DNA of 46,256 bases from Acidimicrobiaceae bacterium (GTDB lineage: Bacteria; Actinomycetota; Acidimicrobiia; Acidimicrobiales; UBA8592): the NCBI GenBank assembly GCA_002709645.1, contig PAQG01000042.1, positions 1 through 46,256 on the forward strand. The letters are read 5' to 3'. The notes under the pieces were generated by a model. The model searched no databases. It saw only the letters and a program-made list of their open reading frames with translations, and was not told the DNA's origin. Made by a program: the position numbers and the translations under genes. This document shows positions 13,992-37,102 of this stretch, one piece after another (the first letter of the stretch is position 1; every line of letters starts with the position of its first letter).

Positions 13992-15656
13992 ATGACCAAG
14001 TTCTATGATGAATATGACCCGACATTCCCATCAAGGTTAGACTGGAGTTCACCGACGGTTCTCCGCGAAAGAGTTCGCAGACACCCCGAAAAGGCCTACT
14101 TAGAAGTGCCCTGGGCAAATGAATCATATACATATGCTGAAACACTTGACTTAGCAGAACGAGTTGGTTCAGGAATGCTAACTGCTGGAGCATCAGCGGG
14201 AGATCGAGTCCTAATAATGATCCCCAACTGTTCAGCTTACATTTTTGCATGGCTGGGAAGTTCAATAGCTGGGCTTGTTGAAGTTCCGATAAACACTGCA
14301 TACCGCGGTGCCTTTCTCGCACACCAAGTCTCAACAACAACACCTTCTATAGCTGTTATCTCTCCAGAGTACGTGGAAAGAATCCTTGACGTCTCTGACT
14401 CATTCGAAACGGTGAAACATTTCTTTCTAGTAGGCAATGACGATGATATTGAAAATGCATTATCAGTCTTACATGATCACAATAAAGCAGCTTCAAGGTG
14501 GAACGACCTGCTCACTTCCGAAAGGATCGCCCTACCTGATGTAATGCATTCAGACTTAGGATCCATTTTCTTTACTTCAGGAACTACTGGCCTTTCCAAA
14601 GGAGTGATGATGCCTCATGCGCATATGTATTTGTTCGCTGATGAGACTGTTTCGCTTACAAGACTTACGGAAAATGATACTTATATGTCATGCGGGCCTT
14701 TATTTCATGGAAATTCACAGTTTCTCGCTGCGTACCCAGCATTAATAGCAGGGTCAAGATATGTCTTGCAGGAACGCTTCAGTGCTTCAGAATGGATAAA
14801 CCAAATCCGCTCTTGCAAAGCCACAGTCACTAATTTTATTGGAGTAATGATGGACTTTGTCTGGCAACAAGAGCCAAAACCTGAAGATTCCGATAACGAC
14901 CTTCGTTGTGTTTTTGCCGCTCCAACAGCAAGTTCAATACTTGAGGACTATAAGCAACGATTCGGAATTGAAGCTTTTGTGGAGGTATTTGGGTTAACAG
15001 AAACATGCATGCCGATATTAACTCCATATGGCATTGACCGACCCGCTGGGGCCGCTGGATTACTTAATAAGGAATGGTTTGATATTCGACTGGTAAACCC
15101 TGAAACGGATGAAGAAGTTGAGATAGGCGAAGTTGGGGAACTTGTGGTTCGCGCCAATTACCCATTTACTTCTTGCCAAGGATATTTTGATATGCCGGAG
15201 AAAACAGTTGAAGCATTTCGTAATCTCTGGTTTCATACCGGAGATGGACTCAAACGAGATGAAGATGGCTGGTATTATTTTGTAGACCGCCTCAAAGATG
15301 CACTCCGCAGAAGGGGGGAGAATATAAGCTCCTATGAAGTTGAGCAAGCTCTTTCCTCGCATCCGTTAATTGGTGAAGTCGCCGCTATCGGGGTTCCTGC
15401 TGATCAGGAAGCAGGAGAAGACGAAGTTATGGTCTTCATAGTCCCAGAAGAAGGCGCGCAAATCTCTCCCGACGAGGTTTGGGAATATTCCCAAAAACAA
15501 CTTCCTGATTTTGCTATCCCGAGATACATCCATTTCCTTCAAGAGTTACCGAAAACCCCTTCAGAAAAAGTACGGAAGATTGAGCTACGCGAAATGGGAG
15601 TTGCCTCTGACACAAATGATCGAGGTCCTCAGCGCAGAAAGAATAGGGAGAAATGA
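13992..15656 (+). CDS. AMP-dependent acyl-CoA ligase (CaiC-like)
   Basis: 554-residue ANL ligase: P-loop FFTSGTTGLSKG near 192-203, VFGLTETCMP for adenine binding, WFHTGDGL hinge, and DALRRRGENISSYEVE, which marks the carnitine/crotonobetaine-CoA ligase-like branch. The C-terminal Lys region is PSEKVRKIEL. It follows the BadI-like hydrolase by six bases and its TGA overlaps the ATG of the duplicated unknown protein (ATGA at 15653-15656). It presumably supplies the CoA ester used by the flanking enzymes. Confidence 0.92.
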   Translation: MTKFYDEYDPTFPSRLDWSSPTVLRERVRRHPEKAYLEVPWANESYTYAETLDLAERVGSGMLTAGASAGDRVLIMIPNCSAYIFAWLGSSIAGLVEVPINTAYRGAFLAHQVSTTTPSIAVISPEYVERILDVSDSFETVKHFFLVGNDDDIENALSVLHDHNKAASRWNDLLTSERIALPDVMHSDLGSIFFTSGTTGLSKGVMMPHAHMYLFADETVSLTRLTENDTYMSCGPLFHGNSQFLAAYPALIAGSRYVLQERFSASEWINQIRSCKATVTNFIGVMMDFVWQQEPKPEDSDNDLRCVFAAPTASSILEDYKQRFGIEAFVEVFGLTETCMPILTPYGIDRPAGAAGLLNKEWFDIRLVNPETDEEVEIGEVGELVVRANYPFTSCQGYFDMPEKTVEAFRNLWFHTGDGLKRDEDGWYYFVDRLKDALRRRGENISSYEVEQALSSHPLIGEVAAIGVPADQEAGEDEVMVFIVPEEGAQISPDEVWEYSQKQLPDFAIPRYIHFLQELPKTPSEKVRKIELREMGVASDTNDRGPQRRKNREK

Positions 15657-16498
15657 ACTCCGAAGACAAACAGACTGTTGTATTTCAAGATTCTTCTTGG
15701 ACTGGGTCCATTATCGCAATGGATTCTGCATACGATGTTGATCAAAGGAACACTGAGATTGATGTTTGCGTCAATGCTTCGTACTGTGGCGTTCTCCCAG
15801 CAAGGTTTATTGCCGAGCACGCTCCTCGAGCAGCTATCGGTATGGATTGTGGAATAGGCCCTGAAGGTTCAGCTATTGCAGGATTATGGTATTTAGAAGC
15901 TTTAGCTATTCCCGCTGCAGTAGCCGATGTCATGACAGCCCATCTTGGTAACGGAGTTCATCTCTATGAAAACGGAATCATTAGTTTTGCGAACCAACCT
16001 GCCATTGATTGCGGAGTCGGACCTGGAATGAGCGTCAAAGACGCTGCCCTACTACTTCTAGAGCAGAAACCCCAGCAAGCACGAGCTTCCGAAATAACGA
16101 ATCGCACGGTTATGGAAACTTCCCCAGACGGAAGACACGTAATAGCTACAGATTCAATCGCGTTTGGAACAGATGAAGATACCGACACCAATGTTTTGGT
16201 TACTGCCGGTCACACTGGCAGATCAGCAGTACCTTACCTTCTTAAATGCAAGCCTCGGGGGTTCATTTGTAGCGATGGAGGCCGCGGGATGGACGATTCA
16301 GGAATGGCAGGATTATATATAGTCGAAGAAGAAGGGTTAGCAGGCGCAACTGTTGATGCTACAAAAGCAAGAATGGGTAATGGGCTATCCCATTACCATG
16401 ATGGGATTATTTCCGCCGTGAATTCTCTTGCAGAAAACAAAGGCGTATCGCTAGGTATGACGGCACAGGAAGCAGCTAGTCTTCTGCTGATAAAGTAA
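15653..16498 (+). CDS. Uncharacterised internally duplicated protein (copy 1)
   Basis: 281 residues; I do not recognise a named family. The protein is a tandem repeat of one unit of about 120 residues. Repeat 1 (about 18-138) runs IIAMDS, ASYCGVLPARF, APRAAIGMDCGIGPEGSAIAGLWYLEA, then LGNGVHLYENGIIS and GVGPGMSVKDAALLLL. Repeat 2 (about 161-281) runs VIATDS, AGHTGRSAVPYL, KPRGFICSDGGRGMDDSGMAGL, then MGNGLSHYHDGIISAVN and GVSLGMTAQEAASLLL. Both keep a D/G-rich loop and a GNGxxxYxxGIIS segment. No signal peptide or membrane helix is seen, so it is likely cytoplasmic. Translation is coupled to the ligase upstream. A paralog lies at 36230-37102, also coupled in an operon with a ligase. Function unknown. 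Confidence 0.9.
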   Translation: MNSEDKQTVVFQDSSWTGSIIAMDSAYDVDQRNTEIDVCVNASYCGVLPARFIAEHAPRAAIGMDCGIGPEGSAIAGLWYLEALAIPAAVADVMTAHLGNGVHLYENGIISFANQPAIDCGVGPGMSVKDAALLLLEQKPQQARASEITNRTVMETSPDGRHVIATDSIAFGTDEDTDTNVLVTAGHTGRSAVPYLLKCKPRGFICSDGGRGMDDSGMAGLYIVEEEGLAGATVDATKARMGNGLSHYHDGIISAVNSLAENKGVSLGMTAQEAASLLLIK

Positions 16499-16651: not shown

Positions 16652-17905
16652 ATGAAAAGTAAATTATGGAAATTGCTTGCAATTTTTGCCGTGTTAGGTC
16701 TAGTTGCCGTCGGCTGTGGAGACGATGATGACTCCAGCAGTTCAAGCAGCGAAGCCTCAAGCAGCGAAGAAGCCTCAAGCAGCGAAGCCGCAGAGGAAGA
16801 GTGCGAACTAGGCAGAGGCGTCAGCGATGACAAAATCCTCTTTGGTTCATCTCAGCCAATGACAGGTAACCTCGCAGCTCTTGGTGAACAAGCTGTACTT
16901 GCTATGGAAGTAACAAAAGACCGAATCAACGAAGCTGGTGGAATCAATGGCCGAATGATTGACTTCATTGTCCAAGATGACGCATACAACCCTGAAAAAA
17001 CGGTTGCTAATGCTCAGTACTTCATTGAGCAAGAAAAAGTCTTTGCTATCTGGGCCAGTATCGGTTCAGCTCCATTGAAAGCAGCGCTGCCAATTCACAA
17101 TGAGAATAATACGCTAACGCTGTTCCCTTGGGCACAGGACCTTAGCTTCTACGATGTTGACGTAAATCCGCTGTTCTTCTCAGTGAACCCATCAGCATAC
17201 GCTCAAACATTTGGCTTCGGTAAAGTGCTTGTAGAGACCTACGGTCTTGATGGAATCCAAGTTGGTTTGATGACAATTAACTCAGTTGATGGTCAGCAAA
17301 CAGTTGATGGATTCAAAGACAGTATTGGCGGATCAGCTCTTGTTGATGAGCAAACTTGGGAACGAGATTCCACTACCTACGGACCTCAGATCCTGTCATT
17401 CATTGATTCAGGAGTAACCGATGTATACATTGGAACTGGCGATACCCAATTTGCGCAGTTCCTGCTTGAAGCAGACCAATTAGGTCTAGATGCACGTTTC
17501 TGGGGATCAACCGGAACCATCTCTGCCAACAGTATTGAATTGGCCGGAGATCTTTCTGAAGGCGCCTATGGTGTTAACGTTATTTCTTCAGCTAATGGCG
17601 ACAAGCCAGGTCTGAATGCATACCGTGAAGCTATGTTCGCTGCGGGAGCTACAGAAGCTCAAATTAGTACTGCTAGCTTGCTTGCATATACAGGTGGTCT
17701 AGTACTTGAAGAAGGGCTAAATAGAGCCGGCGAGTGCCTAAACAGCCAGACTCTTTCAGCAGCTTTTGAAAGCATTACTGACTTCTCCACGGGTGGCATT
17801 ATGCGTCCTTTGAACTTCTCAAGTGATAATCACCTTGGGAACAATGACGTAATCATTCTCCAAGTACAAAATGGAGTTTGGGTCGAAGTAGAAAACCTCG
17901 GTTAA
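16652..17905 (+). CDS. livK: ABC transporter substrate-binding lipoprotein, Liv type
   Basis: 417-residue type 1 periplasmic binding protein (Peripla_BP_6 fold). An N-terminal lipoprotein signal peptide ends in a lipobox with Cys22 (GLVAVGC), followed by an Asp run and a Ser/Glu-rich spacer that tethers the domain to the membrane. The mature domain starts near VSDDKILFGSSQPMTG and contains EAGGINGRMI and IVQDDAYNPEKT, typical of branched-chain amino-acid and aromatic-acid binding proteins. It heads the liv operon. In this catabolic setting the ligand may be a carboxylate rather than an amino acid, which is inference. Confidence 0.93.
   Translation: MKSKLWKLLAIFAVLGLVAVGCGDDDDSSSSSSEASSSEEASSSEAAEEECELGRGVSDDKILFGSSQPMTGNLAALGEQAVLAMEVTKDRINEAGGINGRMIDFIVQDDAYNPEKTVANAQYFIEQEKVFAIWASIGSAPLKAALPIHNENNTLTLFPWAQDLSFYDVDVNPLFFSVNPSAYAQTFGFGKVLVETYGLDGIQVGLMTINSVDGQQTVDGFKDSIGGSALVDEQTWERDSTTYGPQILSFIDSGVTDVYIGTGDTQFAQFLLEADQLGLDARFWGSTGTISANSIELAGDLSEGAYGVNVISSANGDKPGLNAYREAMFAAGATEAQISTASLLAYTGGLVLEEGLNRAGECLNSQTLSAAFESITDFSTGGIMRPLNFSSDNHLGNNDVIILQVQNGVWVEVENLG
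16742..16789 (+). repeat. Imperfect tandem repeat encoding the Ser/Glu linker
   Basis: Three consecutive copies of TCAAGCAGCGAAGCC (15, 18 and 15 bases; the middle copy has an extra GAA). They encode the SSSEASSSEE-like spacer after the lipobox cysteine. The unit could vary in copy number by slippage without shifting the frame. Confidence 0.8.
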
Positions 17906-17930
17906 TCTAACCTAGGAGTTCATTCGAACT

Positions 17931-17962
17931 TTATGGGGCCCCAGGCAACTGGGGCCCCATAA
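17931..17962. terminator. Strong intercistronic hairpin between binding protein and permease
   Basis: TTATGGGGCCCCAG (17931-17944) and CTGGGGCCCCATAA (17949-17962) form a perfect 14-bp stem closed by a GCAA tetraloop, 25 bases after the binding-protein stop. It is followed by A residues, not T, so on the plus strand it is not a classical intrinsic terminator. It may act as a partial terminator or 3' stabiliser that keeps binding-protein mRNA in excess over the permease genes, as in many ABC operons. Each arm contains the palindrome GGGGCCCC. Confidence 0.6.
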
Positions 17963-18016
17963 AAAATGAAGTAAAAAAATATTTAGCAACAAAGTCAACA
18001 GAGTATCGGGAGCGAA

Positions 18017-18904
18017 ATGGTTGATTACATCCAAATAGCATGGCAGGGACTTGTATCCGGTTTCGCATATGCTCTTATCGGCCTTGCTCTCGTCATGGTC
18101 TACAAAACAGCGAGAATTCTTAACTTTGCTGCCGGAACTATGGCGGGAATCTCAGGTTTCTTGGCCCATTGGTGGGCCGCAGAGAATGATATGCCTTTTG
18201 CTATAGCAATTATCTTTGCCATGATTATGACCGCAGTCGGGACTTACGTCATAGAACGTCTCACTGTTCGACCACTCATCAAGTTAGGAGACTTTCTCCC
18301 GATAGTTATCATGACATTAGGAGTTGAAGAACTTCTAGCAAACGTCTCTCTTCTTTGGTGGGGAGGAAGCGCACAGAGATACCGTGTCCCTGGTGATATC
18401 GATAGAATAAACTGGCTTATAGGCGATTTTAGATTAAATGCTTGGCACGTCGTCGTCGCTGGCACAACATTTGTTACCCTTTCAATCGTTGGATACGTAA
18501 TTAATCAAACTGAACTTGGCCTAGGAATGAAGGCCTTCGCAGAAGATCAAGACGCTGCGAAATTAATGGGAGTGAAAGAATCCACTGTTTCTATTTGGAC
18601 ATGGGTTCTTTCTGCATTAGTTGGTGGGGTTACCGGAATAGTTTATGCCCCAGTGCTTTTCCTCCAACAGGACTACATGAATATCATCTTTATCAAAGGG
18701 TTTGTCGCAGCTATCCTTGGTGGATTCTTAAGCCTTTCTGGAGGTGTCGCCGGTGGGCTGCTTCTCGGGGAATTGGAAGCATTCACTATCAAATGGGCAC
18801 CTAGAGAATTCGCAGCAGCTCTTCCAGTGGTAATCGTATTTATCGTACTGCTGATTCGGCCACATGGACTCTTCACAAGAGAGAAAGGGCATGAACGAGT
18901 ATGA
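18017..18904 (+). CDS. livH: Branched-chain amino-acid type ABC permease LivH
   Basis: 295-residue integral membrane protein with about eight hydrophobic segments. It opens with IAWQGLVSGFAYALIGLALVMVYK, broken here by family-typical spacing, and then has ILNFAAGTMAG, the conserved LivH motif. The cytoplasmic EAA-like loop is GMKAFAEDQDAAKLMGV near 170-186. GGGAG precedes the ATG. It forms the inner-membrane channel with the LivM part of the next gene, whose ATG overlaps its stop (ATGA at 18901-18904). Confidence 0.93.
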   Translation: MVDYIQIAWQGLVSGFAYALIGLALVMVYKTARILNFAAGTMAGISGFLAHWWAAENDMPFAIAIIFAMIMTAVGTYVIERLTVRPLIKLGDFLPIVIMTLGVEELLANVSLLWWGGSAQRYRVPGDIDRINWLIGDFRLNAWHVVVAGTTFVTLSIVGYVINQTELGLGMKAFAEDQDAAKLMGVKESTVSIWTWVLSALVGGVTGIVYAPVLFLQQDYMNIIFIKGFVAAILGGFLSLSGGVAGGLLLGELEAFTIKWAPREFAAALPVVIVFIVLLIRPHGLFTREKGHERV

Positions 18905-20754
18905 GTACAGATAACCAACAGGCCCAAACCGCTTTAGAGCGGGCCAAAATTCCATTACCAAGATTTCTAAAGAAAAACCACTATTTGGGTTTTCTAGGAA
19001 TACTGCTCGTTTATCTCCTTGCTGGAACTTATTCTGCGTATTCCCTAACGATTATGAGCACCATAATCTTCGCAATTATTGGAGCCAGCCTGATAGTTGT
19101 TTTCGGTATGGCAGGTCAGTTAACACTGGGTCATACAATTTTCGTAGCCGGAGGGGTTTTTCTATCCGCCAACATAACCATGGAATGGAGTCGGGGGTTA
19201 GAAACGGAACTTCCTCTTGCCTTTGGTGTTATGTTCATTCTTGGCCTTATTGTAGGATTTCCCAGTTTACGCGTTAACGAGTTATACCTAGCTTTGGCTA
19301 CGTTCGCCGTAGCCTTTGTCGGTGTGCAAGTCCTTTTTGAATGGGAACAATTTACCGGGGGTGGATCAGGAAAACCCGTAGGTAAGCTTGAATTCTTTGG
19401 TCGTGAATTTAGTCGTGGCCCTACCCTAGTTCGTATCGCTTTAATAATAATGTTGTTCACATTTTGGATTGTCGGCAATTTCCAAGATGGTAGAACTGGA
19501 CGAGCATGGAATGCTTTGAGAACTAGCGAAACTGCCGCAAGGGCCTCTGGTCTTCCTGTAGCTTGGCTGAAGATTCTTTGTTTCGCAATTGGTGGTGGCC
19601 TAGCAGGTCTTGGCGGAGTCCTCTATGCACATACACTTCGATACGCCATTCCGGAAAATTATGGAGTGAACCTTTCAATAATTGTTGTTCTTGCTTTGAT
19701 AATCGGGGGGAAACATCGCCTAATGGGAGCTGTTCTAGGAGCAGTTTATGTTAAATGGCTGCCAGAACTTTCCCGTTCCGTTCAAGAGTACGAAGGTCTC
19801 ATCTATGGTGGAACACTAATTATCTTGACGTTAATAGCCCCTGATGGATTAGTAGGAATGTTTGAATGGGCAGCAGAACGGATAAAGAGTTACAACAACT
19901 CAAAAAATGGTGAAAATTTTAATTCTAAGATTGCAGTTTCAGATATTTCTCCGCTTAGATCTGAATATCTTTCTTCCATAGGGTCGGAAACAACCCGAGG
20001 ACACCTTGTAGTAAAGAATGCAGCTGTTGCGTTTGGCGGTGTAAAGGCAGTTGATGATGTCTCATTTGAGATTCCAGCAGGAGCCGTGACAGGGCTCATT
20101 GGATCAAATGGGGCTGGGAAGACCACTCTCTTTAATGCGATCACCGGACACGTTAAAGGTGCTACAGGTGAGTTTATCCTTGATGGAACTTCTGTTTCAG
20201 GAAAGCCAATTCATGTAAGAGCTCTAACTGGGATAGGCAGAACCTTTCAGAATTTAAATCTTCATGATGACTTAAATGTGCTTGAGCATGCTTTACTTGG
20301 CCTTGATAGAAACACTAATTACAGTCGTATAGCGGAGTCTTTTAGACTGCCCTGGGTTCTTAGAGAAGAGAAGAAGGCGCACTTTGTTGCCGCTGAACTT
20401 CTAGATCACATGGATTTACTGGAATACTGGGATGAAAAAGTTGAAGACCTTCCTTATGGGTTGCAAAAGCGTGTTGATGTCGTTCGAGCCTTAGCGTCTA
20501 ATCCCGGTATATTACTTCTAGATGAACCCGCAGCTGGACTTCCAACTGCAGAGGCTCTGGAAATGATGCAGAAAGTACAAGAATACGCAAAGCATATTTC
20601 AGCCGGAGTACTTATTATTGAGCACAATGTTGAATTAGTAGCTGATGTTAGCGAGCGAATAATTGTCCTAGATGCTGGAAAGACGATCGCGGATGGTACT
20701 CCTGAAGAGGTAACACGAAATGAAGAAGTTATAGCTGCATACTTAGGGACTTGA
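18901..20754 (+). CDS. livM-livG: LivM permease - LivG ATPase fusion
   Basis: 617 residues joining two normally separate subunits. Residues about 30-330 form a LivM-type permease with GMAGQLTLGHTIFVAGGVF and the loop AWNALRTSETAARASGLPV. After a polar linker (about 335-365) comes a LivG-type ATPase: Walker A GSNGAGKTTL near 400-409, Q-loop FQN near 445, signature LPYGLQKRVDVVRAL near 518, Walker B ILLLDEP, and the switch His in IIEHNVEL. The signature deviates from LSGGQ, which is usual for LivG. Overlapping starts on both sides couple it to LivH and LivF. The reading frame is continuous, so the fusion is not a frameshift artefact. Confidence 0.93.
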   Translation: MSTDNQQAQTALERAKIPLPRFLKKNHYLGFLGILLVYLLAGTYSAYSLTIMSTIIFAIIGASLIVVFGMAGQLTLGHTIFVAGGVFLSANITMEWSRGLETELPLAFGVMFILGLIVGFPSLRVNELYLALATFAVAFVGVQVLFEWEQFTGGGSGKPVGKLEFFGREFSRGPTLVRIALIIMLFTFWIVGNFQDGRTGRAWNALRTSETAARASGLPVAWLKILCFAIGGGLAGLGGVLYAHTLRYAIPENYGVNLSIIVVLALIIGGKHRLMGAVLGAVYVKWLPELSRSVQEYEGLIYGGTLIILTLIAPDGLVGMFEWAAERIKSYNNSKNGENFNSKIAVSDISPLRSEYLSSIGSETTRGHLVVKNAAVAFGGVKAVDDVSFEIPAGAVTGLIGSNGAGKTTLFNAITGHVKGATGEFILDGTSVSGKPIHVRALTGIGRTFQNLNLHDDLNVLEHALLGLDRNTNYSRIAESFRLPWVLREEKKAHFVAAELLDHMDLLEYWDEKVEDLPYGLQKRVDVVRALASNPGILLLDEPAAGLPTAEALEMMQKVQEYAKHISAGVLIIEHNVELVADVSERIIVLDAGKTIADGTPEEVTRNEEVIAAYLGT

Positions 20755-21470
20755 TGATGACTGGATTAGAAATTACAAACTTAAAAGTTGGATATAGCCG
20801 TAATGAAGTGATTCATGGCCTTGACCTAAAGGTAAATCCGGGTGAAAAAGTCGCTCTTCTTGGCGCTAATGGTGCTGGAAAGTCTACTGTCCTAAGAACA
20901 ATATCTGGACTATTAACACCCACGGAAGGCTCCATAACATTTAATGGAGAAGAAATTGGGGGATCTAACCCGGCAAATCTTGTTGAGATGGGAGTTATTC
21001 AAGTTCCAGAAGGAAGGCGTGTGTTCCCAGGCCTAAACGTTGAAGATAACTTAAAAGTTGCTAATTATGGAAAGTCTCCAGATCTCCTAGAAGAAGGCCT
21101 TGAAGCTGTCTATAAGAAATTCCCTATACTTCAAGAGCGTCGTAAACAGGCTGCTGGTCTTCTTAGTGGTGGACAACAGCAAATGCTTTCACTCAGTAGA
21201 GCTATTATCGCAAAACCTAAATTACTTTTAATTGATGAAATGTCGCTTGGGCTGGCTCCGTTACTTGTGAAAGATTTTTACGAGCAATTGGCTGATTTGT
21301 TCTCAGAGGATGTAACACTTCTTCTGGTTGAGCAGAATGCAGGGTTAGCCCTCAAATACTGTTCCAGATTCTATGTACTAAGAAACGGTGAACTAGTTCT
21401 TGAAAGCAACTCTGAGGATTACAAAGATAACCCGACTGCATTACAGTCTGCTTACTTGGGTGTTGACTGA
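20754..21470 (+). CDS. livF: Liv-type ABC transporter ATPase LivF
   Basis: About 238 residues. Walker A GANGAGKST is near 35-43, Q-loop VIQVPEGRRVF (the LivF-characteristic PEGRRVFP), signature LLSGGQQQMLSLSRA near 135, Walker B LLLIDEMSLGL and switch-region LLVEQNAGLAL. It dimerises with the LivG part of the preceding fusion to power uptake. The start is ambiguous: ATG at 20754 overlaps the upstream stop (TGATG), a second ATG follows at 20757, and an in-frame TTG lies at 20751. AGGGA at 20744-20748 serves any of them. Confidence 0.93.
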   Translation: MMTGLEITNLKVGYSRNEVIHGLDLKVNPGEKVALLGANGAGKSTVLRTISGLLTPTEGSITFNGEEIGGSNPANLVEMGVIQVPEGRRVFPGLNVEDNLKVANYGKSPDLLEEGLEAVYKKFPILQERRKQAAGLLSGGQQQMLSLSRAIIAKPKLLLIDEMSLGLAPLLVKDFYEQLADLFSEDVTLLLVEQNAGLALKYCSRFYVLRNGELVLESNSEDYKDNPTALQSAYLGVD

Positions 21471-21516
21471 TCCATGCCTTTAACGCACTTGACTATTTGT
21501 CAGGTTTGGAGATTCA

Positions 21517-21999
21517 ATGGCAAGGATTGAGGTTCCAAATGGTGATGACCTTGAACGTCTTCGATTATGGAAAATGGCACCAGCATTTTCTGAAGCGGTA
21601 GATTCCTTCCGAATAGCAGCACATGAAGAAAGCATTCTTTCAGTAAGAGAACGTGAAGTAGCGAGAATGAAAATAGCTGTGATCAATCAATGCCCTATAT
21701 GACTTGACACTCGAACTTCGTCGGGAACGGGTGATCATCTTAAGGAAGAAGAGTATTTACAGATTATTGACGGCAGTATCCCGAAGTCATTAACGCAAAG
21801 AGAGAAATTAGCTATCAATTTCGCTAAAGAATTTTCTATTTCACCTGAGAATCTTAATGAAGGTTTCTTTAGCGATCTAAGAAATAAGTTTACTGGCAGG
21901 GAAATCGTTGAACTTTCTGGATATTGTGCTTTCTGTTTGGGGATCGGACGTGTTTACAAAGTTCTTGATATCGCAAACGAGTGTCCGGTTATTCACTGA
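21517..21999 (+). CDS. Probable selenoprotein: CMD/AhpD-like family, Cys-x-x-Sec
   Basis: Carboxymuconolactone decarboxylase/AhpD-like protein of 160 residues if the in-frame TGA at 21700-21702 is read as selenocysteine 62. The family motif E-x11-C-x2-C-x3-H appears as Glu47, Cys59, Sec62 and Arg66 (INQCPI, Sec, LDTR), so TGA sits exactly where the second redox Cys belongs. The frame stays open for 98 more codons with family-like sequence (LTQREKLAINFAKEF, GREIVELSG, a second CAFC at 137-140, LGIGRVYKVLDI). A SECIS-like hairpin follows at 21705-21737. GGAG precedes the ATG. AhpD-like proteins are thiol-dependent peroxidase or disulfide reductase partners. It follows livF and overlaps the convergent ligase by 11 bases. 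The alternative is a nonsense mutation or base error in a Cys codon. Confidence 0.8.
21705..21737 (+). promoter_or_regulatory. Candidate bacterial SECIS element (CMD/AhpD-like gene)
   Basis: Just downstream of the TGA, TGA plus CACTCG (21705-21713) pairs with CGGGTG and TCA (21728-21733, 21735-21737), with one bulged A and one G-U. Inside, CTT/GGG can form a short upper stem around the loop CGTC. The loop carries G21720-U21721, 17 bases after the TGA. Bacterial SECIS elements need a GU in the apical loop about 16-37 bases after UGA; SelB binds it with Sec-tRNA. The upper stem relies on G-U pairs, so the fold is plausible rather than strong. Confidence 0.55.
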
Positions 22000-23542
22000 G
22001 AGTCTTTTGAATTTGCTTTCTAAGTTCACGTTTCAATATTTTTCCGGTTGGGGCTTTGGGCAACTCAGAAACAAATTCAACGAATTTGGGTTTTTGATAA
22101 CTAGCTAGATTTCGTTTGGCTTCTTTTATGATTTCTCCCTCGGTAATGGAATAACCTGGTTTGAGTACCACGTATGCTTTTACAGATTCGCCCCATTCTT
22201 CATCAGGTACACCTATTACCGCTACTTCGAGCACTGCATCGTTAAGCCCTATTGCTTCTTCCACTTGTATTGAATAGATATTCTCTCCCCCAGAAATAAT
22301 CATGTCCTTTGCTCGGTCAACGATAAAACAATAACCTTCATGATCCCAAGTAGCTATATCTCCGGTCCACATCCAACCATTTTTTATAGTTTTTGCTGTT
22401 AAATCCGGACGCCCGTAATAGCCAACCATGTTGGCATATGATTTGACTATAATTTCTCCCGGAGTTTTATTATCTCTAGGAACCACTTGCCCTTGAGGGT
22501 CTACAATTCGTACTGAAGTTACGAAACCTTCTCTACCGCAGGAACGTAAACGTTCGGGGTGATATCCGTCTTGCACGGCTTTCAAATGATCTTCTTGACT
22601 CAAGAAAGTCATTGTTGTGCCTTCAGTCTGACCGTATCCTTGGATCAAAGTGCAGGGGAAAGAGTCAAGAGCTTCCTTAATAACTCTGGAAGGCATTGGC
22701 CCCCCGCCATATTGTATGTTCCTCAGAGAGGATAGATCATAGGAAGAGAAATTCTCGGCGGCCATCATCCAGTTAAGCATTGTTGTTACTCCAAGAAATG
22801 CAGAAACTCTTTCTATTTCAATAAGGTCTAATGCTAACTTTGGCTCAAAGTTCATAAGCACCAGCGGGCATCCATGTGCATGGTAATTCATTGCTAATAC
22901 AACAGGGATATGAAACATTTGCCCAGTGAGCATATAGACGTCATTTGGTACGATTCTTTCGGCGACAGTTTGATTCTGCATCCCAAACCAAACACTTCTA
23001 TGAGAGTGCAGCGCTCCTTTTGATTCTCCCGTAGTTCCCCCCGTATAGAGAATAAAGAAGCTATCTTCTCCCCCAATTTCTTTACAGACTGAAGGTTCAT
23101 CTTCTCCATGGCTTTCTGTAAGTTTTTCAAAAGAACCATCACCTGATTCTCCGTATTCAAGCCAGTGCCCAACAGTGTCATTGCCTTTTTGCACGTCACA
23201 GATTAGTTCGTTGAAAAATGCTTCTGATATAACAGCACGTGGGCTTCCATTGTTGATGATCTTAATTAGCTCAGTTGCAGATAGTCGCCAATTCATTGGT
23301 TGTGCGATAAGACCTGATCGTCCACAAGCATAAAAAATAGCCAAATGTTCAATTGAGTTACGACTTACGATACCAACACAATCCCCTTTTTTTAGACCTA
23401 GTGATAGTAGACCATTTGCAATTTTATTAACGTACCTATCTAACTCAGCAAAAGTAATACGCTTATCATTCGTTGAGTCAAAAATTGCAGTTTTGTCGGG
23501 CGTTAAATTAGCCCATTTTTGAGCGATTAGACCGATATTCAT
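21989..23542 (-). CDS. AMP-dependent acyl-CoA ligase (long/medium-chain type)
   Basis: About 517 residues. P-loop ILYTGGTTGESKG (with a Gly replacing the usual first Ser), QGYGQTEGTT adenine motif, WMWTGDIATWD hinge, DRAKDMIISGGENIYS and catalytic Lys in APTGKILKREL. I take MNIGLIAQKW at 23542 as the start: it lies 16 bases after the SDR stop, whereas a frame opening at 23689 would overlap the SDR by 131 bases with unrelated sequence. Convergent with the selenoprotein gene. Confidence 0.9.
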   Translation of the reverse strand: MNIGLIAQKWANLTPDKTAIFDSTNDKRITFAELDRYVNKIANGLLSLGLKKGDCVGIVSRNSIEHLAIFYACGRSGLIAQPMNWRLSATELIKIINNGSPRAVISEAFFNELICDVQKGNDTVGHWLEYGESGDGSFEKLTESHGEDEPSVCKEIGGEDSFFILYTGGTTGESKGALHSHRSVWFGMQNQTVAERIVPNDVYMLTGQMFHIPVVLAMNYHAHGCPLVLMNFEPKLALDLIEIERVSAFLGVTTMLNWMMAAENFSSYDLSSLRNIQYGGGPMPSRVIKEALDSFPCTLIQGYGQTEGTTMTFLSQEDHLKAVQDGYHPERLRSCGREGFVTSVRIVDPQGQVVPRDNKTPGEIIVKSYANMVGYYGRPDLTAKTIKNGWMWTGDIATWDHEGYCFIVDRAKDMIISGGENIYSIQVEEAIGLNDAVLEVAVIGVPDEEWGESVKAYVVLKPGYSITEGEIIKEAKRNLASYQKPKFVEFVSELPKAPTGKILKRELRKQIQKTLSE

Positions 23543-23558
23543 ATTGGCATATTTCTCT

Positions 23559-24389
23559 TCACAAACCTGAACGCCCTGCTTCTCTTTGAAATGGCATCGG
23601 TTCAGAGTGTGGTGGATCATTCGGTGTTGACCCTGTCGTAACACCGCCATCAACAACAAGGCAGTGTCCATTTGTATTACCAGACTCATCAGAAGCTAGA
23701 TAGACGGCGGCGTTTGCGACATCTATAGGAAGACCTGGCCTATTGAGGATTGGAGATTTAGCTCTGACAACTTCTGTCACCTGTTCAAGGTCGTTATGGT
23801 CATCCATGTAAGCAGCTGCTACTAACGGTGTCACTGTTGATCCAGGAGCAATACAGTTCACTCTAATTCCTGAACGGCATAGTTCTGCAGCTACATTTTT
23901 TGTTAAACCCACTACCCCATGTTTCGCTGCCGCATACACATGAGGGCCGAGCCCTCCTGTAACTCCAGCAGTGCTAGCGATATTAATAATCGCACCTGAC
24001 TGATTCTGCTTCATATGAATCGCAGCATATTTGATCCCTAAGAAAGTTCCGAATAGAAGAATGTCAAGTGTCGCTTTGAATTCCTCAGATGGGATCGTTG
24101 CTATAGGGCCTCGGTTTCCAACAATGCCAGCATTGTTCATAACAATATCTAGAGTCCCGAATTCTTTAACTGCGTATGCCATAAGCGACTCAACATCTTT
24201 CTCGCTGGTAACGTCGCAATGCTGATAGCATGCATTTGAGCCAAGATTTTCAGCTAGTTTTGCCCCACGTTCATCTTGGATATCTCCGATAACCACTGAA
24301 GCTCCTTCTTCAATGAACCTATGTGCAGTGGCTTCTCCGATACCCGAAGCTGCTCCTGTAATTACGGAAACCTTTCCATCAAGTCGCAT
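23559..24389 (-). CDS. Short-chain dehydrogenase/reductase (SDR)
   Basis: 276-residue SDR with TGAASGIG at 11-18, NNAG 85-88, Ser139, Tyr152 and Lys156 (YAAAK) and CLVVDGGVTTG. The C-terminal extension (NDPPHSEPMPFQREAG) is longer than in the other SDRs here. It lies between an MFS carrier and a ligase on the minus strand, with 14- and 16-base gaps, and is likely co-transcribed with both. Confidence 0.9.
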   Translation of the reverse strand: MRLDGKVSVITGAASGIGEATAHRFIEEGASVVIGDIQDERGAKLAENLGSNACYQHCDVTSEKDVESLMAYAVKEFGTLDIVMNNAGIVGNRGPIATIPSEEFKATLDILLFGTFLGIKYAAIHMKQNQSGAIINIASTAGVTGGLGPHVYAAAKHGVVGLTKNVAAELCRSGIRVNCIAPGSTVTPLVAAAYMDDHNDLEQVTEVVRAKSPILNRPGLPIDVANAAVYLASDESGNTNGHCLVVDGGVTTGSTPNDPPHSEPMPFQREAGRSGL

Positions 24390-27651: not shown

Positions 27652-28374
27652 TCAGGATCGACCTTCCATAATCCCATCTGCTCCTGGTAACCATGAGGCA
27701 ACTCCTGCAACTGGGATAGCGCAGATTACTGATTCAACAATTTCTGCTTCCGTTGCCCCAGCCTTTCGCGCTCCATTTGCATGGACATTTACGAATCTTG
27801 AAGAGAACTCAGCTGCGTTGACTGTGCAAAGAAGTAGTTCAACATGCTTAGCGTCCAACAAATTTTCGGCAAGACTGAATTCGCGCATTAAGACATAACC
27901 TTCTAACGCTCTCGGTGCTTCATCAGCCATCAACTTGACGTAAGGGGGTATGAATCCAAAGTATCCTTCAAAGTATTCAAGGCAACTTTCTCGATCAACA
28001 GGATAAGCGGGCATTGGGTCATCTGTTATGACTATTTCTTCGTTAAAGATCTCATTGACAGCTGTTGTAAATTTTGTATAAACCTCTTCACCTCTGCTAA
28101 TAAAAACCGTTAATGCTGCACCACGTGCATCGTTCAGAGATAATCCCTTCTCTTTGGACCTCAGCAACTCTCGGAAAAGTAAACCGTCATGTCCCTTAAC
28201 TGCTGCGGCTGAAGCCATATACAGTGCTTTAGCCCAAGCAGGCAGAGCTCCATCCAGGTCTGTAACGTCACGCAATCGGGCGTAACCTTCGGCAAATTTT
28301 TGTGATTTCGCAGCTATTTCCCCCGAGAGGAGTACTTGGCTGCCCAAACTTTCATGATCTGCATTCTCTGACAT
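27652..28374 (-). CDS. Two-domain CMD-family protein lacking the redox cysteines
   Basis: About 240 residues that appear to hold two carboxymuconolactone decarboxylase-like helical domains, the first near 40-100 and the second near 150-230. In the second, the motif E-x11-C-x2-C-x3-H aligns as Glu (HVELLL), then Ser and Phe at the two Cys positions, and a retained His (FVNVHANGA). It is therefore unlikely to be an AhpD-type thiol peroxidase partner and may be a decarboxylase-like or structural homologue. ATG codons at 28377 and 28374 are both possible; AAGGAGA fits the second better. It lies nine bases from the SDR upstream. Confidence 0.78.
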   Translation of the reverse strand: MSENADHESLGSQVLLSGEIAAKSQKFAEGYARLRDVTDLDGALPAWAKALYMASAAAVKGHDGLLFRELLRSKEKGLSLNDARGAALTVFISRGEEVYTKFTTAVNEIFNEEIVITDDPMPAYPVDRESCLEYFEGYFGFIPPYVKLMADEAPRALEGYVLMREFSLAENLLDAKHVELLLCTVNAAEFSSRFVNVHANGARKAGATEAEIVESVICAIPVAGVASWLPGADGIMEGRS

Positions 28375-28383
28375 CATTCTCCT

Positions 28384-30382: not shown

Positions 30383-31111
30383 ATGGCTCTAACCGAAATA
30401 TTTAGGCCAGCTGATGAACTTGCAGAAATGACTCCTGAAGAGTTCGTTGGCATTATTCGTGAAGAATGCATGAAGCCAGAACGAGGAATGCACAACCACC
30501 CATTTGTTCAAGGACTAGAACAGGGAACAGTTACTATTCCCCAACTCCAGATTTTCACTGAGCAATTCTATTTACATATATCCAAAATGCTTCCATGGAT
30601 TGGTGCTATTTATGTTCGCTGCCCACATGAGGAAGTTAGAACAGCTCTGGTAAAGAATCTTGCTGAAGAATGCACTGGATTTGAAAGCAATACTGCAGCA
30701 CACCCTGAACTACTTTTAGAGTTTGCCAAAGCTTTAGATTCTGATGTTGAAGCGATAAGAAACGGAGTTCAGCACCCAGCTGGAAGACGACTTACAGAAT
30801 ATTTTGAATTCATGGGTCTCTGCCGTGAATGGTTTGTTCCCTTGTCTGCAATTGGAATAGGTCTTGAGTCATTTGTACCTGATACGTTCACTCGAATGGT
30901 GAAGGCACTAAAAGAGAATTATGGGATGACTGACGAGCAAGTTATTTTCTGGTCTATGCATATCCTTGCCGATCAAGACCATGGAGATGAAGGAATAGAG
31001 ATGGTTTCTGAATATGCGATAACAGGTGAACAAAGAAAAGCAGTTTTTGACTGCACGATAGAAACAAGCCGTTTATTTTATGACTTGTGGAATCTCTATA
31101 CACTTCGTTGA
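30383..31111 (+). CDS. PqqC/TenA-like haem-oxygenase-fold diiron oxidase
   Basis: 242 residues, all-helical, matching the HDO/PqqC-like group of iron-containing redox enzymes. The early NHPFVQGLEQG and TEQFYLHISKMLPWI segments are followed by LAEECTGFE, and a late ILADQDHGDEG carries the final His/Asp ligands. Such enzymes do O2-dependent oxidative cleavage or hydroxylation of small substrates, and some cleave acyl or amino acid chains. A near-perfect Shine-Dalgarno (AAGGAGGAG) precedes the ATG. It is followed 12 bases later by a cupin protein in the same direction. Substrate unknown. Confidence 0.8.
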   Translation: MALTEIFRPADELAEMTPEEFVGIIREECMKPERGMHNHPFVQGLEQGTVTIPQLQIFTEQFYLHISKMLPWIGAIYVRCPHEEVRTALVKNLAEECTGFESNTAAHPELLLEFAKALDSDVEAIRNGVQHPAGRRLTEYFEFMGLCREWFVPLSAIGIGLESFVPDTFTRMVKALKENYGMTDEQVIFWSMHILADQDHGDEGIEMVSEYAITGEQRKAVFDCTIETSRLFYDLWNLYTLR

Positions 31112-33151: not shown

Positions 33152-34306
33152 TCAGTTCTTAGCCAAAATCGCGGCATTAAAATACTGAGCGCCCGAACCA
33201 GCTCCCGTTACCAAAGCTGTTTCTGCATCATTAACTTGATCCCCAGAAGCAGTCCCACGTAATTGACGAACTGCTTCAATTACTTTTAGATTAGGCCCTC
33301 CCCAACCAGTATGACTAAAGGAAAGCAAACCACCATCCGTATTCGTTGGATATCTCCCATTAACGCTTATCCCATTTTCAAAAAGGAAATCTGTTCCATC
33401 GCCTTCCGAACACAAACCTAATGTTTCAAATTGTCGGACTATTTCCCATGTGTTGATGTCATAAACTTCAAATACGTCAATATCATCCACCGTTAGGTCA
33501 GCGTAATTAAACGCTCTCTCAAATGCATCCTTACCTATCGCACCTACTTCGTCATACCTAGCGGGGTCAACATATTGTTGACGATGCCACTCTGAACCTC
33601 CACCGAGAATACGTACTGGCGTATGAGGACAATCTAATGCTCTTTCAAGTGACGTAATTATCACAGCAGATGCACCTTCAGTAGCAAGACAGAGATCCAG
33701 AAGATGAAAAGGTTCGCAGATGATAGGCGATTCAACGATATCTGAGGGGCGGTAAGGTCCTTTACCGAACATAACAGCTTCAGGATTTCTAGATCCAGCA
33801 TTTCTGATCTCTACAGCAATCTGTGAAAGTTTTAATCTGTCCGGCTGAAACCGAGCGAAATATACTTGAGCCACCATCGCAAAATGTGCTGCAGTAAAGA
33901 GTCCCCATGGGCGAACAAATTCATTATTTGGCTGCGTATACTCTGCTAATTCTGAGCGATTCAAAATACCTGCTTGCCCTCCAAAAACAATTACTGTCTC
34001 GCAAAGGCCAAAAGATACTGCCGCAGCTGCATCTAGGACCCCAGGCACACCCTGAGGATATGTATCCCCAACCCATCGAAATGACTTTCCAAAAACCCCC
34101 GACCAGTCAATAACTCCTGAATCAAACTCAGTCCCTCCTGGACCCGGCCATCTAGCGGATATCCCATCAATATCTTTCATCAACATACCCGCATCAGCAA
34201 GTGCGTTTTTTACCGCTTGGATACAAACTGTTATGTTATTTTCTTGCAGTGATTTTGCCTGTTCAGTTAACCCAATTCCAGCAATAGCAACATTAGAGTT
34301 CTTCAT
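33152..34306 (-). CDS. Thiolase-fold protein without the nucleophilic cysteine (Ltp2/SCP2-thiolase-like)
   Basis: 384 residues with a thiolase layout like that of SCP2/Ltp2-type proteins: VAIAGIGLTEQ at the N-terminus, VYDINTWEIV and the C-terminal GGLLSFSHTGWGGP followed by GAGSGAQYF. The usual N-terminal nucleophile segment reads YPQGVPGVLDAAAAV with no Cys, so a normal thiolysis is unlikely. Such proteins paired with a DUF35 partner include the Ltp2 aldolase of steroid side-chain degradation. The start overlaps the ligase by 4 bases, and DUF35 is encoded one gene further upstream, which fits an aldolase or lyase complex. Confidence 0.82.
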   Translation of the reverse strand: MKNSNVAIAGIGLTEQAKSLQENNITVCIQAVKNALADAGMLMKDIDGISARWPGPGGTEFDSGVIDWSGVFGKSFRWVGDTYPQGVPGVLDAAAAVSFGLCETVIVFGGQAGILNRSELAEYTQPNNEFVRPWGLFTAAHFAMVAQVYFARFQPDRLKLSQIAVEIRNAGSRNPEAVMFGKGPYRPSDIVESPIICEPFHLLDLCLATEGASAVIITSLERALDCPHTPVRILGGGSEWHRQQYVDPARYDEVGAIGKDAFERAFNYADLTVDDIDVFEVYDINTWEIVRQFETLGLCSEGDGTDFLFENGISVNGRYPTNTDGGLLSFSHTGWGGPNLKVIEAVRQLRGTASGDQVNDAETALVTGAGSGAQYFNAAILAKN

Positions 34307-35841: not shown

Positions 35842-36233
35842 TTTTTTGCTCTTCTAGGTTGGAAGAAAGGCATAGTTCGTTCAGCATGTTTTTCAAATAT
35901 AACCTCTACTTCTAAACCCACGGAAATCTCATCAATCTCACAATTCAATAATTGAGAGTACATTTTCCACCCTTCTTCTAAATCAACGTCAACGACAATA
36001 TAAGGATTAGGGAAACCATCACCCATCGGCCTATGTATGACGGTGTAACTATAGATTTTTCCATTCCCATTACTTTCCTCATAAATCCAATCAGAGGATT
36101 GACAATCAGGACATACAACTTGTGGAGAAAAGAAATTGTTACCGCATAGGTTGCAAACAGGTCTTACGAGTTTTTTTCTTTCAATATTTTCCCAGAATTC
36201 GCTTGTCAACGTATCTGCATTGTTTTCACTCAC
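35838..36233 (-). CDS. DUF35 OB-fold protein with zinc ribbon
   Basis: 131 residues. The N-terminal rubredoxin-like zinc ribbon has two Cys pairs, CNLCG and CPDCQ, near 27-44, followed by a C-terminal OB-fold (GKIYSYTVIHRPMGDG, EEISVGLEVEVIFE-type strands). These proteins bind thiolase-fold partners and are thought to help CoA-substrate binding. It overlaps the duplicated-protein gene upstream and the ligase downstream by 4 bases each, in the order duplicated protein - DUF35 - ligase - thiolase-fold. Confidence 0.9.
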   Translation of the reverse strand: MSENNADTLTSEFWENIERKKLVRPVCNLCGNNFFSPQVVCPDCQSSDWIYEESNGNGKIYSYTVIHRPMGDGFPNPYIVVDVDLEEGWKMYSQLLNCEIDEISVGLEVEVIFEKHAERTMPFFQPRRAKK

Positions 36234-37102
36234 TCATTAACCTCTTCGAGAAGCTTGAATGCAGCTTCTCGAACTGTCATTCCAATTTCCACGCCACGCT
36301 CCGCAGCAATATCATTGCATGCGCTAATTGTTCCTTCTTCGAATGCCTTAAACGCATCACCAACCGGCGCACTCCAGGCATCACAGCACGCACCAGCTAA
36401 TCCATGCTCTTGAGTTGTTTCTAACCCGGCAATTCCTGCATTATTTTTGCTCATACCTCCATCGGAGCAAATAAATCCATGCGGCGAGACCTCTAATAAA
36501 AATTTTGCACCAGAACGTCCAGTGTGGCCAGCAGTTACAAGAACATTTTTATTGTCTTCAGGTAATGCGAAAACTATTGAATCTGTCACGATTATTTCCC
36601 GCCCTGTATCCGAAATAGCTACGGATTCACGCCGTATTTTTGTTCCAGCTGAAATGTCACCTGGATCATTCTCTAATAAAATCTTCGCAGACTCCGCTAC
36701 AGACATTCCTTCTTCAACTCCCGCTCTTTCAGCGAGAATATTCACCCTTGATATGATCCCTGTCTCATAAAGATCCATACCATTTCCAAGTTCTGCAGAC
36801 ATTCCCGCTGCTGCGGCAGCAGGAATACCTATTGCTTCCAAATACCATAACCCTGCAATACCCGCCCCATCCTTACCTATACAGCCATCATGGGCGATAA
36901 CTGCCCGAGGACGATGCGGAGCCATAAGCCGCGCCGGCAGAACACCCAAGTACGAAGAAGGGACCACCACATCCCTATTCGAATTTCTTCCATCAACATA
37001 CCGCGCCGAATCCATAGCCACAATCCTTCCTTCAGGACTGTTAAATACCACATCGTGAGGGTGGTCTGATTCTTCATTTAATAAAGGGGCTTCTTCAACC
37101 AT
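36230..37102 (-). CDS. Uncharacterised internally duplicated protein (copy 2)
   Basis: 290 residues, paralog of 15653-16498, family not recognised. Repeat 1 has IVAMDS, SSYLGVLPARL, PRAVIAHDGCIGKDGAGIAG, then LWYLEAIGIPAA and LGNGMDLYETGIIS. Repeat 2 has IVTDSIVF, NVLVTAGHTGRSGAKFLL, HGFICSDGGMSKNNAGIAGL, then FEEGTISACN and GVEIGMTVREAAFKLLEE. Blocks shared with copy 1 include NVLVTAGHTGRS, GFICSDGG and AGLWYLEA. GAGGAAAC precedes the ATG. It starts a four-gene run with 4-base overlaps (DUF35, ligase, thiolase-fold protein). It carries an 18-residue acidic N-terminal extension relative to conserved sequence. Function unknown. Confidence 0.9.
   Translation of the reverse strand: MVEEAPLLNEESDHPHDVVFNSPEGRIVAMDSARYVDGRNSNRDVVVPSSYLGVLPARLMAPHRPRAVIAHDGCIGKDGAGIAGLWYLEAIGIPAAAAAGMSAELGNGMDLYETGIISRVNILAERAGVEEGMSVAESAKILLENDPGDISAGTKIRRESVAISDTGREIIVTDSIVFALPEDNKNVLVTAGHTGRSGAKFLLEVSPHGFICSDGGMSKNNAGIAGLETTQEHGLAGACCDAWSAPVGDAFKAFEEGTISACNDIAAERGVEIGMTVREAAFKLLEEVNE

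Follow-up and report, generated by a model that had tools for sequence, protein, structure and literature searches.

Selenoproteins of the AhpD-like and CMD-domain types, in which a Cys-x-x-Sec (CxxU) motif forms the redox pair, were described from the Sargasso Sea in 2005 (PMC1088965) and from GOS in 2008 (PMC2398784). A 2026 review lists such selenoproteins under TIGR01926, PF02627, NF041238, and NF041047 and ties the AhpD-like type to TIGR01926 (PMC13188914), in agreement with the statement of the initial annotation that AhpD-like selenoproteins are reported from marine metagenomes. These proteins share with the gene described here the CMD/AhpD type, Sec as the second member of the redox pair, an origin in marine bacteria, and the existence of Cys homologs. 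In a sponge metagenome, selA and selB were found in symbiont bins of various phyla (PMC5649159). An open-access full-text search combining Acidimicrobiales, Acidimicrobiia, or Ilumatobacter with selenocysteine or selenoprotein returned no report of such proteins.

Among proteins of solved structure, the AhpD-like Pseudomonas aeruginosa PA0269 (2o4d, 2ijc) gives the best profile match (E 3.6e-13) and one of the best fold matches. Its peroxidase activity is weak, and a His four residues past the second Cys is reported to be invariant among AhpD-like proteins, including PA0269 and AhpD relatives (PMC3141380). PA0269 differs from the present family in having CxxC instead of CxxU and in carrying His55 at the position of our Arg66. 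Mycobacterium tuberculosis AhpD shares the Glu-x11-Cys-x2-Cys spacing, with Cys133 at the position of Sec62, but it has His137 in place of Arg66, differs in helix order, and is a weak structural match (E 1.4, to an H137F mutant chain). The debrominase Bmp8 (6ohi) has the same fold and is of the CMD type but matches only distantly (E 1.5e-6; 16% identity across the structure).

The window analyzed here is a stretch of 46,256 nucleotides, contig C42 of an Acidimicrobiaceae draft genome of 1.83 Mb with an estimated completeness of 85%. On its forward strand, positions 21517-21999 hold an open frame of 160 residues plus stop, preceded by a probable ribosome-binding site, GGAG, at 21508-21511 (+), 5 bases upstream of the ATG as read directly from the sequence. 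Translation of 21517-21999 yields 61 codons, a TGA at codon 62 (21700-21702), 98 further codons, and a terminal TGA, and the read-through product runs MARIEVPNGDD...INQCPI-U-LDTR...ANECPVIH. The initial annotation had described this arrangement correctly, placing E47, C59, U62, and R66 where we find them, and had recognized that conventional annotation would treat the gene as truncated or as a pseudogene: a standard call would stop at the TGA after 61 residues. From base composition, the chance of a 97-codon open run is approximately 0.004. As evidence for the predicted read-through, the comparative evidence, namely a TGA in the same column in seven same-genus orthologs, outweighs this chance figure. 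Three other TGA-interrupted frames in the window were set aside: the TGA at 31109 is an ordinary stop separating two adjacent same-frame genes, and the frames at 34053 and 36411 are antisense to longer opposite-strand genes.

Comparison with relatives demonstrated that the TGA occupies a conserved active-site column. A search of 148 relatives retrieved same-genus orthologs in seven genomes, 60-70% identical to the window protein, each with one TGA in the same column. The order-level set of 50 genes contained 36 with TGA and 14 with TGC or TGT at the position 62 column, and a scan of named genomes yielded 71 relatives, of which 65 had TGA, four TGT, and two TGC. Almost all of these 71 are labeled Acidimicrobiales, Acidimicrobiaceae, Ilumatobacteraceae, or uncultured actinobacteria. 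TGA and Cys codons thus share one column, in agreement with the earlier placement of the TGA exactly at the second redox Cys, and the homologs with Cys or Sec at position 62 that had been proposed as a check were both found. No stop or frameshift appears between the TGA and the gene end in any aligned relative. Between orthologs, the differences after the TGA fall mostly at third positions (in the comparison with L022, for example, 23, 13, and 60 at positions 1, 2, and 3), as do those before it, a pattern indicating that purifying selection persists 3' of the TGA. An initial database scan with the single protein as query gave no matches, and an alignment-based scan of viral contigs found no family members.

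These data bear on three ways in which the TGA might be something other than a Sec codon. If it were a real stop, leaving a pseudogene or a truncated 61-residue protein, the conventional reading would be correct as it stands; the same-column TGA in orthologs of 60-70% identity, the lack of any other stop or frameshift, the chiefly third-position changes downstream, and the presence of Sec machinery in the genome make this reading highly improbable. A TGC or TGT codon that was misread in sequencing or assembly would be in keeping with the Cys codons that relatives carry at position 62, but such an error is already refuted by the 65 TGA cases, which come from many separate assemblies of sea and fresh water and include the isolate Ilumatobacter nonamiensis YM16-303, and we assign it practically no probability. 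Suppression of UGA as Trp or another residue would account for the open frame and for nothing more. Against it, relatives without the TGA invariably have Cys at this position and never Trp, TGA also terminates the same gene, the SelD frame of the genome has a Sec-type TGA, and the RNA constraint and tRNA-Sec described below indicate Sec; this reading, too, is very unlikely.

A paralog in the host genome (L051, G000:C6:52159-52638) is CMD/AhpD-like and 39% identical, with a TGA at the same active-site position, and paralogs of this type are present in most same-genus genomes searched. The hairpin of L051 is much stronger than that of the window gene. Four Ilumatobacteraceae-type genes (L118, L124, L127, and L148) have TGT at the Sec position, a decayed stem, and selA in their genomes, and are apparent Sec to Cys reversions. 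Three sequences titled Bifidobacterium breve, Euryarchaeota archaeon, and Planctomycetaceae (L113, L092, and L138) are Sec genes of the usual Acidimicrobiales type and are probably mislabeled or derived from mixed bins.

The assembly also contains the selenocysteine machinery. On contig C10, selA (379.6 bits) lies next to selB (313.5 bits), a tRNA-Sec gene (66.6 bits, with a TCA anticodon according to ARAGORN) lies on the same contig approximately 12 kb from them, and selD (363.4 bits) is on contig C15; the search of the genome for selA, selB, selC, and selD suggested earlier therefore found the complete set. The selD gene (L020, G000:C15:20762-21682) has an in-frame TGA of its own within GSGUGCK, which we take to be the motif of Sec-containing SelD. 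SelD of the host is thus probably itself a selenoprotein, so that the selenoprotein genes of this genome would include at least one more, of a well-known kind.

Across the order, each of the 12 genomes that combine the close TGA form with a completeness of 85% or more gave a selA match, compared with 58 of 104 good genomes of the order. The TGA form occurs without a selA match in four incomplete genomes (G001, G006, G012, and G018; 67-83% complete), most likely due to absent contigs. The genome of the isolate Ilumatobacter nonamiensis YM16-303, whose TGA gene is L110, has selA as well. selA is also present in the genomes of all five Cys members tested, so that in these members the replacement of Sec by Cys was not a consequence of losing the machinery.

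Downstream of the TGA, the Sec members share a constrained RNA element. In the window this bSECIS-like helix lies at 21715-21733 (+), with arms at 21715-21721 and 21727-21733 and the loop CGGGA at 21722-21726, and it is identified by covariation. The Sec members have a helix of at most seven pairs, 13-31 bases past the TGA, with a loop of five bases in which G invariably occupies the second place (alignment column 24). The covariation score was 0.416 compared with 0.182 in shuffled alignments, none of 500 shuffles scored as high, and slid controls were far lower. Among 31 distinct sequences, 87% of cells pair, both-side changes occur in six of the seven pairs, and doubly changed cells number 30 compared with 10.6 in shuffles. 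The mean number of pairs formed, out of seven, was 6.08 in Sec members and 2.07 in Cys members. In four Cys members of the Ilumatobacteraceae group, the peptide AASA is kept while its codons are altered and the stem is reduced to 3-4 pairs; since the peptide survives the loss of the stem, the hairpin is not forced by the peptide.

Synonymous codon identity points in the same direction, reaching 0.94-1.0 over codons +6 to +10 in the family against a background of 0.45. Within the window's own clade it is 0.94 over codons +6 to +9 compared with 0.45, and only 2 of 124 windows of codons are as high; this constraint fits an RNA signal that would be read by SelB. The window copy of the conserved helix forms five of the seven pairs, two of them G-U, and in the ensemble predicted for the window sequence alone these conserved pairs come out at near-zero probability. 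A SECIS hairpin with a loop G near the TGA is therefore found at the level of the family, with the window sequence alone folding weakly: the putative helix of the window clade is a degenerate version, and the RNA evidence there is comparative.

The hairpin with GU in its loop that had been pointed out after the TGA exists as the minimum-energy structure of the single sequence (UUC-GUCG-GGA, -10.9 kcal/mol), but it is not conserved and differs from the conserved helix. Its energy does not stand out from that of shuffled sequence (z = -0.99), and this single-sequence fold was dropped as evidence. The proposal to fold the region accordingly had a divided outcome: the downstream RNA is constrained in Sec members only, but the single-sequence fold stays within the range of shuffles. 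A helix nearer the UGA, obtained with RNAalifold from eight orthologs alone, was also dropped, being without support in the wider family.

The conserved domain extends through the TGA. The PF02627 CMD model matched with a score of 31.2 bits (cut-off 23), covering all 84 model positions and spanning the TGA. Ten positions are invariant in two alignments: Glu47, Arg50, Ala54, Asn57, Cys59, position 62, Arg66, Ala99, Gly144, and Arg145. The Cys-x-x-Cys pair with its preceding Glu is thus retained, with E47, C59, and U/C62 invariant and Sec as the second Cys. The His that follows four residues later in AhpD-like proteins (His55 or His137) is absent, and every aligned member has Arg66; the replacement of His by Arg that had been remarked on is real, but it is invariant in the family and not a local oddity. 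The second CxxC at 137-140, also remarked on, exists but is not a family feature: among the aligned genomes Cys137 occurs only in this one, with Ile or Val in orthologs, and a role for this second motif was rejected on that ground.

The AlphaFold model is all-helical and confident (pLDDT 88.4, pTM 0.84), with low confidence at residues 68-71 past the active site. The PDB entries nearest to it are the AhpD-like 2gmy and PA0269 (2ijc), at TM 0.75-0.77. In terms of solved folds, Atu0492 and PA0269 are nearest (TM 0.74-0.77), followed by peroxidase-related proteins and Bmp8.

Every NCBIfam model that matched gave family scores well under its cut-off. The window family lies far under the cut-off of TIGR01926, a peroxidase-related model (32.5 against 81.8 bits), and its likeness to the marine metagenomic AhpD-like type is drawn from published descriptions. 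The model for YciW-related (seleno)proteins, NF053654, matched all 16 members scanned, but a score of 36.7 bits falls far short of its equivalog cut-off (310), and the window protein is not a member. The CxxU kind is already known from marine metagenomes, and the window family is a new, apparently uncurated member of it, centered on Acidimicrobiales; it is placed within the known kind because the metagenomic proteins were compared by description.

Taken together, the Sec genes, the Sec and Cys relatives, and the RNA constrained in Sec members only support the Cys-x-x-Sec selenoprotein reading, and we conclude with high confidence, on comparative sequence grounds, that the product of 21517-21999 is a true selenoprotein with the CMD/AhpD fold. 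Comparison among relatives demonstrates Sec as the predicted decoding of position 62: SelB and Sec-tRNA would insert Sec there, aided by the small mRNA hairpin past the UGA. The product would be an all-helical AhpD-like oxidoreductase with the active site Cys59-Pro-Ile-Sec62 and with Glu47 and Arg66 nearby. Sec62 may act as the nucleophile on a peroxide, a disulfide, or another electrophilic substrate, a role proposed because its position matches that of AhpD Cys133, which belongs to the catalytic cysteine pair and is presumably the peroxide-attacking member. Cys59 would then resolve Sec62 as a selenenyl sulfide, which a thiol reductant may recycle. We consider the odds of peroxide or disulfide chemistry to be even. 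Peroxidase activity is plausible, but with Arg in the place of the proton-relay His, a peroxidase chemistry like that of AhpD is not to be taken for granted.

The genomic context of the gene is conserved. A complete branched-chain-type ABC transporter operon at 16652-21470 (+), with order and strand conserved in seven orthologous loci, comprises livK (16652-17905, from Pfam) and, by homology and operon order, livH (18017-18904), a fused livM-livG (18901-20754), and livF (20751-21470), all on the forward strand. The Sec gene begins 46 bases past livF on the same strand. Convergent with it, and overlapping its 3' end by 11 bases, is an AMP-binding gene of the acyl-CoA-ligase type at 21989-23689 (-), with a PF00501 match of 255 bits and a position conserved in orthologous loci. 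The order enoyl-CoA hydratase, ligase, unknown protein, livK-H-MG-F, and Sec gene, followed on the other strand by ligase, SDR, and MFS, recurs in each of the seven orthologous loci to the limits of the stretches compared. In 27 of 70 other named loci, mostly of Ilumatobacteraceae or freshwater actinobacteria, the Sec/Cys gene lies near different, oppositely oriented liv-type genes, and a more distant Sec homolog (G135) adjoins a close relative, at 76% identity, of the window's ligase at 13992. Together with the position of the window gene behind a liv-type transporter and next to acyl-CoA ligase genes, this repeated association hints, short of proof, that the Sec gene may act in the uptake and catabolism of carboxylic acids. 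Neither ahpC nor a peroxiredoxin gene was found adjoining the Sec gene.

Elsewhere in the window, the gene at 27652-28377 (-) lacks a TGA and also belongs to the CMD family (PF02627, 31 bits); its neighbors include SDR and SnoaL-like genes. Two similar proteins of approximately 280-290 residues, both of which seem to be built from two similar halves and have weak Pfam matches only, are encoded at 15653-16498 (+) and 36230-37102 (-), one of them inside the conserved liv locus.

In the main competing view of function, the protein is a selenoprotein but not a peroxidase, and would instead work as a thiol-disulfide or reductive dehalogenase-like enzyme on a substrate of the neighboring catabolic genes. 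The profile match to Bmp8 (structural TM 0.75), the location near catabolic and transport loci in each of two distinct clades, and the Arg where AhpD has His are consistent with it, whereas the closest folds and profiles are those of AhpD-like PA0269 and Atu0492, of which PA0269 is weakly peroxidatic (PMC3141380). We regard this alternative as a serious one, with a probability somewhat short of even. More tentatively, and with the balance leaning against it, the family may represent a distinct Acidimicrobiales selenoenzyme, defined by a Sec-Cys pair and an invariant Arg for the AhpD His, which would carry out a substrate-specific reductive step in carboxylic-acid uptake and catabolism and not general peroxide defense.

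Standard gene calling would cut the window gene and dozens of its relatives at the TGA, recording them as 61-residue proteins or pseudogenes. Selenium-dependent redox chemistry would on this evidence be common in marine and freshwater Acidimicrobiales. The close Sec and Cys versions, with decay of the SECIS element, offer a natural experiment on the retention or loss of Sec, and the named isolate in the family, Ilumatobacter nonamiensis YM16-303, provides a host open to testing.
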